Below, piece after piece: positions 5,169 through 10,987 of a DNA stretch of 64,000 nt. Within the stretch, counting starts at the first letter, position 1. Each line of letters opens with the position of its first letter. The stretch spans positions 6,126,001-6,190,000 of the forward strand of contig NZ_CP108882.1 of NCBI RefSeq assembly GCF_036347055.1. Direction: 5' to 3'. The notes under the pieces were generated by a model that was not told where the DNA came from, did not search any database, and was given only the letters and a program-made list of their open reading frames with translations. Origin of the DNA: Streptomyces sp. NBC_00820 (lineage in GTDB: Bacteria; Actinomycetota; Actinomycetes; Streptomycetales; Streptomycetaceae). Made by a program: the position numbers and the translations under genes.

Positions 5169-5437
5169 TTGGAAGTCGCCCACCCCGGCGGCTACCGCCT
5201 CACGATCACCACCGCCCCGGACAGCAACCGCGTCACCGGCCTGTACGTCGTCACCGAGGACGGACCCGGAGCGACGAGCATCTCCAGAGCGAGGTACGGC
5301 AGCTCACGGCGCGTGGGCCCAACACCGCTACCATCGGCAACCGCCTCAAAGCGGAGCTGAGTCGTATAGGTTCCGAGATCCTGCACGAGCTTCGGAACGG
5401 CGCTCCTGATTCGACGGTAGTTCGGACAGCACCATGA
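5169..5437 (+). pseudogene. Frameshifted 3' end of an upstream gene coupled to the immunity-like gene
   Basis: The first frame (from TTG at 5169) gives a plausible beta-rich segment YRLTITTAPDSNRVTGLYVV. At about 5265-5275 the coding signal jumps by one base into the frame that reads EVRQLTARGPNTATIGNRLK and ends at the TGA 5435-5437. That stop overlaps the ATG of the next gene (ATGA), the usual coupling of a toxin tail with its immunity gene. I interpret it as the decayed C-terminal end of a polymorphic-toxin gene. No toxin motif can be named. Confidence 0.45.
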
Positions 5438-6111
5438 CTCAGCACACGGCCGCTCCCATCGAGGTGTTCCGCATCGTGCCGCGCTTCCACGACTCCTTCA
5501 AGGGCGTTCTCCTGGAAGACGACCAGATCCTGCGATGGGAGCTGGACGAGCAGGCCGCGCCCCTCCCTGCCGGGATCCCGGGGTCGCTGGACGTGGACCT
5601 CGGGGGAACACCGGCTGACTACCCCACCGCGGATCCCGCGTGTCCCGTCCTGAGCGCCGCCCTGCTGCAAGCCGTCAGGGACCGCTTTTCCGGCACCGGC
5701 CATTTCATTCCGGTGACCATCCCCGGGCTCGCCACCGGCACCTGCACGGCATACGTGCCCACCACCGTCTCCGACTGCCTGGACCGGATCGACTCCTCTG
5801 CTCCCGAGGCGACCGGAAAGGTCAGGAGGGCCGTATTCCATCCCGACCGGGTACCCCTGCAGGTCCCCGCGTTCCGTCTCCTGGAGAACAAGACCTACGT
5901 GTACTGGAACGCCTGGGCCGCGCGCCTGATCGAGTCCTCGGCCGCGCCTGGGAGCGTAGAGCTGCGCTTGGCATGGTCGAGCGACCCGACGGCAACTCCT
6001 CACCGGGATCCCATGGGGTTCTGGTGCCGACTTCGTCAGACAGGGGGCCTGTGCCGGATTTGCGTCTGTGCGGAATGCACGGCGTGGGCGGCGTTACGGG
6101 CGATGTCCTGA
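5434..6111 (+). CDS. Imm11-like (DUF1629-type) immunity protein, paralog 1
   Basis: The protein shows the layout of DUF1629/Imm11 proteins: an N-terminal VFRIVPRF segment, then PVLSAALLQAVRDRF-x-FIPV (the 'PVLSxxLxxxL...IPV' block), a CLDRIDSS box, then FHPDRVP...FRLLENKTYVYWNAWAARLIES. It is clearly paralogous to the gene at 10331-10987; the final VELRL-x-WSSDP-x-ATPH-xx-PMGF block is nearly identical. Where the paralog stops (TTCTAG) this copy has TTCTGG (6019-6024), so the frame runs on for 29 Cys-rich residues into the 37-bp dispersed repeat. In this family such proteins neutralise a cognate toxin in the cytoplasm. The start ATG overlaps the preceding decayed frame. Confidence 0.6.
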   Translation: MTQHTAAPIEVFRIVPRFHDSFKGVLLEDDQILRWELDEQAAPLPAGIPGSLDVDLGGTPADYPTADPACPVLSAALLQAVRDRFSGTGHFIPVTIPGLATGTCTAYVPTTVSDCLDRIDSSAPEATGKVRRAVFHPDRVPLQVPAFRLLENKTYVYWNAWAARLIESSAAPGSVELRLAWSSDPTATPHRDPMGFWCRLRQTGGLCRICVCAECTAWAALRAMS

Positions 6112-6127
6112 CGCTGAAATGACGCTC
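6091..6127. repeat. Copy 2 of the 37-bp dispersed direct repeat
   Basis: This copy matches 601-637 (34/37) and carries TGACGCT at 6109 and 6120. It overlaps the extended 3' end of the preceding gene. Confidence 0.6.
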
Positions 6128-6316
6128 CCGGAAGGCCGGCCCGGCTTTGCTCGGCGAGAAGACGCCGGAAGTGGGGCCTGGGCGGGCGAGGCGGCGTTCC
6201 GGCGCATGGGGACCTTGCCCACAGCGCCCCATCCATGACCCCGGCCCCGCACCCGGGTCGTGGGTGCGGGGCCGGAGCCTGCGGGGCCGGAGCCTAGGGA
6301 CGTACCGTCGTACGGG

Positions 6317-8650
6317 TCACCTCCGCGCGGATTCGCGGCGGCGCTTGAGCCACATCAGGGTCGCGCCGGATCCGAGGAGGAGCACGGCGAGGCCGGCCAC
6401 GATGCTCACCTGTGTGCCGGTGTCCGCCAGACCGCCACCGTCGTTGCCGCCTCCGGTGGGCGGGACCGGGTTGCCGCTCGTCCCGGCCGAGGCCGTCGGC
6501 AGCGGCGACGACGTCTGCGAAGGCACGCCGGTCGGCTTCCCGGTCGGCGTCTGCGTCGGCTTGTGCGACGGCGTCGGCGTCGGGGACGGCTTCGGTGGGT
6601 TGCCGCCGCCGGTACCGGTGTCCGTCGCGTTCGTGTTGCCGCCGAGGAGGTCCAGGCCGTCGTCCTTGGCGTCGTCGGTCAGGGTCTTCACGCTGGTCCG
6701 CGTCTGCCGGGGCAGGTAGCGGTGCTGTGTGGTGAAGGTGACCTTGGGGATGTTCCGCTTCGGTGCCTTGGAGAAGTCGACACCGCCGACGATGTACACC
6801 ATGACACCCTGCGCGGTGTCCACGTCGTACGTGAACTCGCCGTTGAGGAAGATCTTCCGGTACCGCTGGAACAGTTCGTCCTTGTCCCAGTTCTGGTTGG
6901 GAGCGCGCAGCGGCCACGACTTCACGTCGTCGCTGTTGACGACCTTGTGGTAGTCGGTGGGCGACTTCGCGTCCTGGAGACGGATCCACTCCGCCGCCAC
7001 ACGGGCGGTGTAGACGCGACGCAGATCCGCGTACTGCGGGGCCGTGTTGACGGTCTTCTCCACCGCGGGGACGATCATCCGGTCGATGACCGCCTGGGCC
7101 TGCTGCCGTTCGGCGTCGCTGGGGTGACAGATCGCTTCGCCGCCGGGCTGCGTGGAGAAGTCCTGCGGGGTGGACTTCAGCCTCAGCGGGGCGTCCAGGA
7201 TGTAGATCCCGCCGTCCTGCTCGCGGACCTGCGCGGGCTTGGGCTCGATCCAGTTCCGGATCCCGCCGAAGCACGGCCGGCCGTCCTCCCGCGGCAGCGC
7301 CGCCCAGAACCGCTTGCCGAGATCGGTCTTGGGGTCCATCGTCTTGAAGAAGTCGTGCTTCATCTGGAGGTCGGCCTCGAGGAGCACGCGACCCGCGTCG
7401 GTGGACGCGAACTTGTCGTCCATGACCCGGTCCGGCTGGTCCGGGTTGAGGTTCACCCAGAACTTGTCGGGGGTCAGCGCCAGCCAGGTGAAGAAGGCGT
7501 CCGAGATGAGCTGCGACTTCGCCTTGCCGCCCCAGCCGGAGTGCTCGGTGGGGTCATCCGTCGCGGAGAACCCGTAGTCCAGGCCCTTGCCCTTGACCGG
7601 CTTGCCCACGTACCGCAGTTCGAGGGTGGTGAAGTCGATCCCGCCCGGCCCCCTCGGTGACAGCCTGCTGGGGTCGGCGGCGTTCTTCTGGTTCAGGAAG
7701 TCCGCCATGCTCTTCGGGTTCGGCCGCGACTCGCGGATCAGGTCCGTGGCCCCGCCACGCGAGATGCCCGACTGTCCCGGGGGCTGCATCAGGGTCGACC
7801 TGCTCCTGGTGCCGCCGCTCGGGGCCTGCTCCACCCTGTCGGAGCGGTAGTTGTACTCGGTGACCCGGCCGGCGCCGGCGTTCTTGCGCAGCGTCTCCTT
7901 CAGGTCACGCGCCGACTTGTCCTGCGGCTCGGCGTAGACGTACTTCATCTTCGAATCGGACCACTTCGGGTCCTTCGACCACGCGACGTCCTTGGGTATC
8001 TGCTTGGGGTCGGGACTCCCGTTGGACTTGATCTCCAGGATCTGCTTGGTCCTGGTGTTGTAGGCGTCGAGCTGCCGCCGGTACGTCTTGCCGGTGTCCG
8101 GGTCGGTGAACTCCACCTCCTTCTGGCAGATCCACTCCGGCCCGGTCAGACCGTGGTCCTTGATCACCTTCTTCTCGAAGGCCTTGCCGCGGGGGTCGTT
8201 GCCCGCGTTCCGGATCAGCCGGACGTCACGCCAGGTGTCGAAGTCACCCCAGGCGTTCGGGTTCTTCTCCTTCGCCCGCAGCCAGGTCCACCAGATCCGG
8301 TCGACAGGCTTGCTCTTCGGTGGCTGCCGCGGCAGATCCTTCAGCCTCGCGACGTCCGCCTCGGACGGCGCCTGAAGCCCGTCCCACTTCTTGCCCGGGT
8401 TCTCGTAGTCGTACGTGTCCCACTGGGACTTGGCCCGCGAGGCGTCGAACTCCGGCAGTTTGCTGATGGCCTGTATGTCGTCGGCAAGGCTGTAGTAGTC
8501 CTTGCACGGCATCCCGGGGTCCAGCGGCTTCGGCGCCGCGTCCGCGTAGCTGTGCAGGCCGGGGAGCCCGGCGAGCAGGAGACCCGCTGCCGCGGCGACC
8601 GCAGCGGCCGAGGCCAGTCGCGCCCTGACGCGTAAACGTATGGTTTTCAA
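6317..8650 (-). CDS. LAXTG-anchored surface protein with restriction-endonuclease-like domain
   Basis: From the TTG at 8650 (GGGGAC upstream) the protein has 777 residues; in-frame ATGs at 8713 and 8734 are alternatives. A signal peptide covers about residues 1-38 (Arg-rich start, long Ala/Leu core). Residues about 155-215 carry E159, D195 and E206-I-K208 (QLDAYN ... ILEIKSNG), the E/D-Xn-EXK pattern of PD-(D/E)XK nucleases such as Tox-REase domains. A second domain (about 315-660) is of unknown function. A Pro/Thr/Gly-rich wall-spanning stalk follows, then LADTG (741-745), a hydrophobic helix and an Arg tail, the LAXTG sorting signal of Streptomyces class E sortases. It is therefore expected to be covalently attached outside the cell. 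It lies between two Imm11-like paralogs on the opposite strand. A structural rather than toxic role remains possible. Confidence 0.7.
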   Translation of the reverse strand: MKTIRLRVRARLASAAAVAAAAGLLLAGLPGLHSYADAAPKPLDPGMPCKDYYSLADDIQAISKLPEFDASRAKSQWDTYDYENPGKKWDGLQAPSEADVARLKDLPRQPPKSKPVDRIWWTWLRAKEKNPNAWGDFDTWRDVRLIRNAGNDPRGKAFEKKVIKDHGLTGPEWICQKEVEFTDPDTGKTYRRQLDAYNTRTKQILEIKSNGSPDPKQIPKDVAWSKDPKWSDSKMKYVYAEPQDKSARDLKETLRKNAGAGRVTEYNYRSDRVEQAPSGGTRSRSTLMQPPGQSGISRGGATDLIRESRPNPKSMADFLNQKNAADPSRLSPRGPGGIDFTTLELRYVGKPVKGKGLDYGFSATDDPTEHSGWGGKAKSQLISDAFFTWLALTPDKFWVNLNPDQPDRVMDDKFASTDAGRVLLEADLQMKHDFFKTMDPKTDLGKRFWAALPREDGRPCFGGIRNWIEPKPAQVREQDGGIYILDAPLRLKSTPQDFSTQPGGEAICHPSDAERQQAQAVIDRMIVPAVEKTVNTAPQYADLRRVYTARVAAEWIRLQDAKSPTDYHKVVNSDDVKSWPLRAPNQNWDKDELFQRYRKIFLNGEFTYDVDTAQGVMVYIVGGVDFSKAPKRNIPKVTFTTQHRYLPRQTRTSVKTLTDDAKDDGLDLLGGNTNATDTGTGGGNPPKPSPTPTPSHKPTQTPTGKPTGVPSQTSSPLPTASAGTSGNPVPPTGGGNDGGGLADTGTQVSIVAGLAVLLLGSGATLMWLKRRRESARR

Positions 8651-8827
8651 TCTTCGTCCCCGTCTGTGGGGGCTGATGGGACAGACGGTGAGCGGTGTGA
8701 GCCCCCGTGACATGACACCGCCAACGGGAAACACCCTAGAGGGTCAACTCTTTCCCAAAGCAAGGGCTTTGACGGGGTGTCGCCCCGATCGCTGCCCGAC
8801 AGTGCCCAAGCCCTAAGCTCGACCGTC

Positions 8828-9517
8828 ATGCGCCCGCTGCCTCACAGCCTCACCCGGATCACCCGCATCCACCCCCCGGCCCCGCACCGCTACGACCAGC
8901 ACTCCATCCGCAACGCCCCAGCTCACGACCCCGAGCGCGCCCGTCGCGTCGTCCGTGAACTGTCCACGGTCGCCGACGTGGTCGAGGAAGTCGCGCCCAT
9001 CGCGCGCAGGGACATCGGCTCACCCAAGAACCTCGGCGACCTCGACATCGTCACCATCGGTTGCTGGGGCAACGCCATCCAGATCACCGACCCCGCCTTC
9101 GCGGAGAACGGCACCACCACCTACAACCTCGACAACGCCTTCGACGCCCAGGTCCAGGCCCACCCCGACGCGCGTATCGCCGCCGCGTGCGAGATGGACT
9201 TCTCCCAGACCTACGCCAAGTACCTGATTCACGTCCCCGGCGCCCCCCGCGTCTCCGCGGACGGCTGGGACGAGACGGACGTCACCGGCGACCTCGTCGA
9301 AGCCCTCCGGGCCTGCGGCATCGACCCGAGCGGTCCCGGCACCGAAAACCTCGACTACGACGACCCCGACACCTTCGTCTGGGGCGACTACCTCGATCTC
9401 GTCGCGTGCGGCCTCCACATCCCCTTCGCCACCGAGTCCTTGCAGGTGTCCGTCTTCAGGGTCACCCGCCCCGAGGAGACCCGGGACGACATGGAAGAGG
9501 CCTGGCAGCAGGACTGA
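8828..9517 (+). CDS. Hypothetical protein, 229 aa (possibly DUF6333-like)
   Basis: The ATG at 8828 was chosen because upstream codons look non-coding. The protein is acidic and cytosolic, with LGDLDIVTIGCWGNAIQI, a YLIHVPG segment and an Asp/Glu-rich C-terminus. The pattern resembles Streptomyces-restricted proteins I recall as DUF6333, which I cannot verify here. It is divergent from the LAXTG protein gene, with 177 bp between the starts, and could share its promoter region. Confidence 0.6.
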   Translation: MRPLPHSLTRITRIHPPAPHRYDQHSIRNAPAHDPERARRVVRELSTVADVVEEVAPIARRDIGSPKNLGDLDIVTIGCWGNAIQITDPAFAENGTTTYNLDNAFDAQVQAHPDARIAAACEMDFSQTYAKYLIHVPGAPRVSADGWDETDVTGDLVEALRACGIDPSGPGTENLDYDDPDTFVWGDYLDLVACGLHIPFATESLQVSVFRVTRPEETRDDMEEAWQQD

Positions 9518-9915
9518 ACGCCCGGGCATCCGCCGGAGGCGGGCGAGCACCGATCGGCGCCGGCCGCACAGCGCCCGTCGGCTGCCACGGGTCATGCCGG
9601 GTCCCGCTTTCGGAGTGTCTGATGGGGGCTGCCAAGTGGTGTTCGGGACGGATGTCACGGCCAGTGACGGCGAGTTGCGGCGGGAGCCTGGGCTCGACGT
9701 CCTGCGGAAGGGGTCGGTCACGTCGGGGCGCGGTACGTCCTGGCCGTAGTAGCTGTGTCCGCGTGACCGGGTCGTCGGCGCCTTGACCTCGGACGTGCGG
9801 ACGCAGGCGGTCTGCACGTCGAGGAAGAACCGTCCTTCCCCGCCGACCATGAGACCTGTACTGACGTGACCGGCGCTCGCCTCATGCTCAGACGCGGGTC
9901 CGGCAGACTGATCGC
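9518..9915. other. No gene seen
   Basis: Open frames here are short or lack codon bias. The reverse strand at about 9700-9850 encodes a short stretch (EGRFFLDVQTACVRTSEVKA) that might be a gene relic, but neither start nor end is supported. Confidence 0.3.
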
Positions 9916-10244
9916 ATGAACCGCGACACCCTGCGCTCCATACTGGCCCGCGACGGCAGCGTCTCCGCGCGTGCAGCCCTCACCGAGCTGGAGGCAGGCG
10001 CGACTTCGAATTCACCCTGAACAGAACAGCTTCCGCCAGCCTGCTCTGGGCCAACTGGTCCTCGCGCCAAGAAACCATGCGCGAGCTGGGCATCACCCCC
10101 TTCCGGCCCGGACTGGCCGAAGCCGTCGAAAGACTCCACGCCGCAGGAACGGCCCGGGTCCACATGGCGACCATCACCGGACCACAGAGGCGTTTCCTCC
10201 TCTTCCTCTCGGAAGACCTCACCCAGTGCGTCGCCTCTTGGTAG
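9916..10244 (+). pseudogene. Frameshifted small hypothetical gene
   Basis: Translation starts at an ATG (MNRDTLRSILARDGSVSARA ending LTELEAGA). After about 9997 the coding signal moves one base into the frame reading DFEFTLNRTASASLLWANWS and onward to RFLLFLSEDLTQCVASW with a TAG at 10242-10244. Joined, this would be about 109 residues, a two-helix start followed by a beta-rich end. The family is not recognised. Either the gene is broken or a base is missing from the assembly. It lies directly upstream of the second immunity-like gene. Confidence 0.5.
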
Positions 10245-10259
10245 CACCACCCCTTTGTG

Positions 10260-10290
10260 TCAGGCGCTCCAATTTGTTCAGGCGCTCCAA
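10260..10290. repeat. Tandem 13-bp direct repeat
   Basis: TCAGGCGCTCCAA occurs twice with an 18-bp period just upstream of the immunity-like gene. Confidence 0.5.
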
Positions 10291-10330
10291 GAGCCGAGTC
10301 CGGCATCCGCTGCCCGGTGTCTCACTGGGC

Positions 10331-10987
10331 GTGCTGTCCGTTGTCAGCATCCATGAAGAGCGGGTCTCCCGGCCCGACCGCGCATTGGACCGAACCCTGA
10401 CTCCTGAAACCTGCGGGACGCTCGACGTCTTCCGTCTCACTCCGTCTTTCGGCAGCCATTACAGGGGCCTCCTCGTGGATGCGCTTCCTGTCATCCGCTG
10501 GGAGATGGACGGCAGTTCCCATCCGCCTCCTGGCGAGGTCGACGCCGATTGGCACGGCGATCCCCGGCGAAAGGTGTCGGACTACCCCAGCGGGCACGCC
10601 GTGGTCCCGGTGCTGAGCCGACGGCTGGCGGAGGAGACGCGTCGGCGCTTCGAGGCGTTCGGGAACTACATCCCCGTGCGCGTGCCCGAGGTAAGGGAAG
10701 GCGCCTACCTCGCGTACATCCCGAGTGTCGTCGCAGACTGCCTCGACAGGGACGCTTCGTCACCGCCGAGCGCGGTCGGGGAGATCGAGCACGCCGAGTT
10801 CGTCCCGGAGGGGCTGCCCCATGACGCCCCCTGCTTCCGGTTGACGGACAACAGGACGTACGTCTACTGGAACGGCTGGGCCGCGCGGCTCATCCAGTCC
10901 ATCGCCGGACCGGAGAACGTCGAACTCCGACTGGTCTGGTCCAGTGATCCCGGCGCCACACCGCATCCGCGGCCGATGGGGTTCTAG
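10331..10987 (+). CDS. Imm11-like (DUF1629-type) immunity protein, paralog 2
   Basis: The start is the only in-frame GTG/ATG before the homologous region; its ribosome-binding site is poor, so the N-terminus is uncertain. The 218-residue protein shows LDVFRLTPSF, PVLSRRLAEETRRRF...YIPVRVPEV, VADCLDRDASS and FRLTDNRTYVYWNGWAARLI in the same order as the gene at 5434, with about half of the residues shared by eye. It ends at PMGF-stop, which looks like the native end of the family here. It probably protects the cytoplasm from a cognate toxin. Its position 1.7 kb from the surface-anchored nuclease-like protein is the main context clue. Confidence 0.6.
   Translation: MLSVVSIHEERVSRPDRALDRTLTPETCGTLDVFRLTPSFGSHYRGLLVDALPVIRWEMDGSSHPPPGEVDADWHGDPRRKVSDYPSGHAVVPVLSRRLAEETRRRFEAFGNYIPVRVPEVREGAYLAYIPSVVADCLDRDASSPPSAVGEIEHAEFVPEGLPHDAPCFRLTDNRTYVYWNGWAARLIQSIAGPENVELRLVWSSDPGATPHPRPMGF

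Follow-up and report, generated by a model that had tools for sequence, protein, structure and literature searches.

A predicted wall-anchored, nuclease-like surface protein of Streptomyces and its either/or partner genes: a candidate polymorphic-toxin-like pair in inverted layout

Barnase and barstar represent an exported soluble nuclease that is held in check by one intracellular inhibitor family and has no wall anchor. In polymorphic toxin systems, the part of the 2012 survey considered here lists XOO2897 among the toxin deaminases and Imm11 together with Tox-AHH, and the words 'sortase' and 'LPXTG' are absent from that part (PMC3482391). In Streptococcus suis, a Rhs/WapA protein of 350 kDa with a C-terminal toxin, a LysM wall domain and its own sortase SrtB is described in the portion of the report used here (PMC12704120), and in S. 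coelicolor the class E sortase acts on LAXTG proteins, according to the sections consulted (PMC5148588). In our study, a stretch of 64,000 nucleotides (the window; contig NZ_CP108882.1, positions 6,126,001 to 6,190,000) from the 8.1-Mb single-contig genome of Streptomyces sp. NBC_00820 was analysed. It encodes a surface protein of 777 residues with an N-terminal nuclease-like domain and a LADTG sorting signal, divergent from a gene for a DUF6333 protein. We regard it as probable that the two genes form a polymorphic-toxin-like pair in inverted layout, with the toxin first, a conserved domain after it and the wall anchor last. The computed evidence comprises the architecture, the invariant catalytic-type residues, the either/or occurrence of the partner, its co-inheritance with the nuclease and the use of the conserved domain with deaminases. 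The open-licence literature on polymorphic toxins, Streptomyces, sortase, LPXTG and N-terminal toxins yielded no description of a wall-anchored, toxin-first nuclease system, and no paper on DUF6333 was found in the open-licence literature.

Architecture of the surface protein and its anchor

The surface gene and its neighbour have the following features.
6317..8650, reverse strand: surface protein, predicted to be wall-anchored, 777 residues (open reading frame, homologues, structure model)
8540..8650, reverse strand: predicted signal peptide, residues 1-37 (hydropathy 1.9 for the 19-residue segment starting at residue 12)
7781..8533, reverse strand: N-terminal PD-(D/E)XK nuclease-like domain, residues ~40-290 (structural matches over 43-273, conservation)
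8027..8068, reverse strand: catalytic-type motif D195-x10-E206-x-K208 (invariant in 101/101)
6659..7651, reverse strand: conserved domain of ~330 residues (334-664), common to deaminase proteins
6317..6430, reverse strand: LADTG sorting signal (6416-6430), transmembrane helix and basic tail
8651..8827: intergenic stretch between the divergent surface and DUF6333 genes
8828..9517, forward strand: DUF6333 (PF19859) protein, 229 residues, proposed cognate immunity protein or inhibitor (Pfam E 2.5e-77)

The protein runs from a hydrophobic N-terminus through the nuclease domain, the domain of ~330 residues (the C-domain) and a Pro/Thr-rich linker to LADTG, a hydrophobic helix and a basic tail. Within its source genome it has one match. 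Of 7,996 candidates scored, 295 are homologues at E<=0.001; where a genus is named among the 120 that were listed, it is mostly Streptomyces and in some cases Micromonospora, Actinoplanes, Actinokineospora or Kitasatospora. The protein matches no family in Pfam, which recognised no delivery domain, Rhs repeats or LysM in it. A sequence-only reading of this DNA had proposed a LAXTG protein with a restriction-endonuclease-like motif in its N-terminal half and had pointed to structure prediction as the means of checking the fold; the protein and the motif that it described are real. The model is confident (predicted local distance difference test score, pLDDT, 85.5; predicted template modelling score 0.81), and its matches over residues 43-273, which cover D195, E206 and K208, are RecE, Can2, Cdn1, Card1, EndoMS and BsoBI, with modest scores. 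The N-terminal domain thereby shows the D...ExK motif on an alpha/beta core that defines the PD-(D/E)XK fold, and the three residues are invariant in all 101 aligned homologues; the mean identity of the domain among loci is 39-41%. On these grounds the domain may be an active nuclease.

The motif L[AP]xTG is found in 99 of the 101 homologues, in the LPxTG form in 6 of these. The LAxTG motif, hydrophobic helix and basic tail of class E sortase substrates are all present in the window protein; the NCBIfam anchor models score under their cut-offs on it. We infer that the protein is exported and attached to the wall by a class E sortase, and it is likely to contain disulfides. It found no match among phage records. 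The best viral-library match to its model was an uncultured phage 'Type VII secretion protein' (E 3.4e-4), and the defence model PD-T4-6 (E 0.0017) covered residues 614-740 only, a stretch made up of the last part of the C-domain and the linker of low complexity.

An either/or partner gene inherited with the nuclease domain

The neighbourhood was compared in 80 fetched loci, which are close relatives and non-independent because they were picked as the best 80 of 196 confirmed matches to the surface protein; 11 of them are shorter than 15 kb. A six-frame profile scan placed the nuclease domain together with a protein family of about 170 residues, here called c1, in 55 loci and with DUF6333 in 24, and both partners together in none. 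The exception (L055) has a truncated surface gene without a nuclease-domain match and a partial c1 match only (E 3e-7). All 79 related loci retaining the nuclease domain thus carry DUF6333 or c1, and the window is one more DUF6333 locus beyond the 80. In the gene calls for the 81 loci including the window, one of the two partners lies upstream of the surface gene in 79; L041 has c1 although the gene calls gave it no partner, and in L038 one called gene stands between partner and surface gene. The c1 gene is divergent from the surface gene in 54/54, and the DUF6333 gene is divergent in 7 and codirectional in 18 (n=25). Three other nuclease loci (L103, L104, L112) all carry c1, and these three and L089-L098 possibly belong to the same species as some of the 80, with L094 being the same place as L103.

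The whole-genome counts were drawn from genome samples. A c1 match was found in 15/61 related genomes, and the reverse test from the 10 best c1 loci found the nuclease domain no more than about 1.5 kb away in 7, the others being L095, L097 and L098. DUF6333 has one match in the source genome, none in 14 control genomes and a match in 3/61 related genomes. Around DUF6333 in two other related genomes, no surface gene was present in the 17-19 kb opened, so that partner genes also occur as orphans, which is known of immunity genes elsewhere. Some single observations also concern the partners. In L097 and L098 the c1 proteins are double and have no nuclease domain within about 1.5 kb, and in L103 (8965-10245) the c1 gene is overlapped by another, incomplete c1 frame, which may reflect a frameshift or tandem immunity genes. 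In L087 (6434-9936) an orphan DUF6333 gene is divergent from an apparently exported protein of 858 residues that is unrelated to the surface protein. In one Streptomyces (P0222), DUF6333 is fused to a C-domain fragment, as though a deletion had taken out the intervening signal peptide and nuclease.

When tried as one family, the two partners showed no detectable homology (hhalign probability 4%); by sequence, neither is convincingly related to a protein of solved structure. Assigning c1 to a known family was rejected, since its Pfam matches are weak and all below cut-off (DUF6278 in 8/49 members, best E 0.013; the helicase-associated domain HA in 6/49, best E 0.0032). Most proteins of both families look cytoplasmic, since hydropathy exceeds the 1.6 threshold in 1/54 c1 and 1/25 DUF6333 proteins.

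The identity of the partner follows the nuclease more closely than the C-domain. The partial correlation is 0.63 with the nuclease vs 0.34 with the C-domain for c1 (n=51) and 0.70 vs 0.22 for DUF6333 (n=25), and subsampling reversed this order in 0/300 draws for each family. Three c1 loci with truncated or over-long proteins (L034, L039, L045) were left out of this correlation and truncated DUF6333 gene calls were retained. The nuclease and C-domain trees, each from one FastTree run, reject each other (approximately unbiased test, p 7e-68 and 9e-62). The c1 tree has 27 of its 51 splits in common with the nuclease tree and 19 with the C-domain tree, and the DUF6333 tree 17 and 9 of its 22, respectively. 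Over 79 loci, the label c1 or DUF6333 requires 6 changes on the nuclease tree and 9 on the C-domain tree, against about 21 when shuffled. Where the C-domains are at least 0.70 identical and the nucleases at most 0.40 (68 locus pairs), the partner is of the other family in 31, of the same family at <=0.40 in 27 and at >0.40 in 10. Where the C-domains are as close and the nucleases are at least 0.60 identical (136 pairs), the corresponding counts are 6, 5 and 125. Such an exchange is seen in the window itself: compared with L022, L038, L044, L014 and L017, identity is 71-77% in the C-domain, 27-30% in the nuclease and 25-36% in DUF6333. Nuclease and partner may evolve at similar rates, which could account for some of the correlation but not easily for the swapped pairs. 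Lineages therefore appear to exchange the nuclease together with its partner on a conserved C-domain, and the adjacent gene is co-inherited with the putative toxin domain, as in polymorphic toxins, by the measures of adjacency and co-inheritance. By the same two measures DUF6333, which the sequence-only reading had overlooked, and c1 elsewhere, is probably the real partner of the surface nuclease, and its role may be immunity.

The common C-domain and competing explanations

A search with the C-domain alone gave 99 proteins from candidates of about 183-581 residues, many of them fragments. Their database annotation includes PF14440, the XOO_2897-like deaminase, in 10 and DUF11 in 8. Most of the 37 that were scanned have residues preceding the C-domain and do not match the present nuclease domain; PF14440 was found in 12 of the 37 (E<=0.1, best 2.4e-18). 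One conserved region is thus preceded by different toxin domains, either PD-(D/E)XK or XOO_2897 deaminase, as is typical of polymorphic toxins. One Streptomyces locus (L102) and three loci on Streptomyces plasmids (L105-L107, of which L105 and L106 are close relatives) have N-terminal HSE and paired-cysteine motifs that are deaminase-like by eye; the two scanned, L105 and L107, gave no Pfam support for this. These four have no nuclease-domain match, and neither c1 nor DUF6333 is present in the stretch examined. The locus L112, from another family of the class, encodes the C-domain behind a divergent nuclease domain (E 3e-10) and with a C-terminal helix; a double c1 protein (E 1.7e-40) lies immediately upstream. 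Among 8 C-domain proteins, the C-terminus carries LAxTG in 1, a hydrophobic helix only in 5 and neither in 2. The C-domain is found in 3/148 genomes sampled across the class and in 4/396 across the phylum, with the source genome counted in both, and in 6/72,556 plasmid records, all from Streptomyces, of which 4 were opened. The structural matches listed for the 777-residue model rarely extend into it. Separately, four proteins (P0173, P0198, P0224, P0226) have other regions before the C-domain without a significant Pfam match, some of them papain-like, deaminase or restriction-type by eye, and a 371-residue protein of a eukaryote transcriptome set (P0218) carries the C-domain at 32% identity, with contamination being possible.

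The mechanism that we propose for the pair is as follows. In the exported protein, the free N-terminal end would bear the PD-(D/E)XK nuclease, followed by the C-domain, the linker and LADTG; attachment to peptidoglycan by a class E sortase would leave the nuclease pointing outward. The cytoplasmic neighbour, DUF6333 here and c1 in most relatives, may bind and block the matching nuclease and protect the producer and its kin, lineages would swap the nuclease and its partner together while keeping the conserved domain, and the nuclease would enter neighbouring cells. Export and wall attachment, nuclease activity, partner inhibition and entry into neighbouring cells are the steps that we infer. 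A wider reading, which we hold tentatively and with less confidence than the pair itself, is that these proteins are toxin-first, wall-displayed contact weapons of actinomycete hyphae and form a new class. Here the C-domain would present, and may deliver, interchangeable N-terminal nucleases or deaminases, and DUF6333 and c1 would be new putative immunity families that substitute for each other.

The strongest alternative, although unlikely, is an extracellular wall nuclease acting on environmental DNA or RNA, or on incoming phage or plasmid DNA, with the neighbour as a barstar-like inhibitor before export and with nothing entering other cells. Wall anchoring, which retains the enzyme on the producer, agrees with it, as do the likely disulfides, the lack of any delivery domain recognised by Pfam and the deaminase-like C-domain loci without a partner. 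However, neither the exchange of nucleases nor the presence of deaminases on the same domain would be readily expected of a nutritional enzyme, and the patchy occurrence of the C-domain in the sampled class and phylum genomes also speaks against it. Still less probable is that the surface protein has no catalytic activity and serves adhesion or the development of hyphae, its linked neighbour being a regulator. The class E sortase substrates of S. coelicolor include developmental chaplins (PMC5148588, sections consulted), and the weak HA matches of c1 make a nucleic-acid-binding role possible, but the catalytic-type triad is fully conserved despite the low mean identity of its domain.

If the contact-weapon reading is true, a covalently wall-anchored, toxin-first layout would be added to interbacterial toxins, with a new presentation domain common to nucleases and deaminases. 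DUF6333 and the c1 family would gain a testable immunity role, and contact-dependent antagonism between hyphae would be directly testable in laboratory Streptomyces.

The Imm-like paralogues and comparison with known systems

Three further features lie on either side of the pair.
5267..5437, forward strand: remnant like the C-terminal tail of a Rhs-type toxin, ending in an ATGA overlap (tblastn; separate system)
5434..6111, forward strand: Imm-like paralogue 1, family length 196 residues (to ~6021), stop lost
10376..10987, forward strand: Imm-like paralogue 2, TTG at 10385 as possible start (same separate family as paralogue 1)

That the surface nuclease is neutralised by these two Imm11-like paralogues, as the sequence-only reading had it from their proximity in one genome, has almost nothing left in its favour, because the co-occurrence survey by which that reading proposed to be judged found either of them in 0/80 homologous loci (tblastn, up to 10 kb each side or to the contig end), the family stands directly behind a toxin-like protein of ~1,500 residues in 7/14 loci and a match to a toxin tail precedes paralogue 1. 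Its suggestion of an undescribed surface contact system is thus kept for a wall-anchored nuclease toxin, by virtue of the domain exchange, the deaminases on the same C-domain and the co-inherited partner, and given up for the Imm11-like partners.

The Imm-like family occurs in 29/392 sampled Streptomyces genomes, including the source genome. Fourteen other genomes contributed one opened locus each. In 9 of these 14 the Imm-like gene is preceded by a gene for a protein of 1,442-1,526 residues; it ends directly before that gene in 7 (L129, L130, L132-L135, L138) and at a gap of 0.6-0.7 kb in L131 and L136, and L125-L128 and L137 lack this arrangement. The one large protein scanned (L130) has WXG100 (below cut-off), T7SS-signal, RHS and AHH nuclease domains. 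When the tails of 10 large proteins were compared with the window by tblastn, 5 matched from position 5267, the best being L130 (45% identity over 56 residues, E 5.7e-7; the other four 8e-6 to 0.05). The match ends in the ATGA overlap with paralogue 1, and the decayed frame that had been noted there thus resembles the last 56 residues of the L130 toxin. Since the family directly follows such large proteins in 7 loci and a tail-like remnant lies upstream, paralogue 1 is probably an orphan gene of immunity type that has outlived the Rhs-type toxin it belonged to, and paralogue 2 its relative. Before paralogue 2, positions 10305-10397 show a weak likeness to the same tails (E 0.12 to 0.90), perhaps a second remnant. 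The Imm11 identity given to the paralogues was not confirmed by Pfam: the scan of both gave no family up to E=10, with the Imm11 (DUF1629) model unmatched and weak matches possibly filtered. A family member adjoins an AHH toxin in L130, the one toxin scanned. Their structure model, with a pLDDT of 34.6, was of no use.

Among known systems, Rhs-AHH toxins with WXG100 and T7SS-signal domains and their immunity genes account for the two Imm-like paralogues and are separate from the surface protein. Like barnase and barstar, the pair would consist of an exported nuclease and an intracellular inhibitor, but with a wall anchor, two partner families and a different fold. With the polymorphic toxin systems, in the part of the survey considered here (PMC3482391), it has in common a shared region with exchanged nuclease or deaminase toxins, enzymes that act on nucleic acids, and an adjacent, co-inherited candidate immunity gene. 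However, the toxin domain is C-terminal in those systems, whereas here the nuclease (residues 40-290) precedes the common domain (334-664) and the LADTG anchor. The sortase-linked Rhs/WapA toxin of S. suis is the nearest precedent found. The two are alike in Sec export, wall association and the involvement of a sortase, all of which are predicted here (PMC12704120, portion used), and they differ in that Pfam recognised neither Rhs repeats nor LysM in the Streptomyces surface protein.
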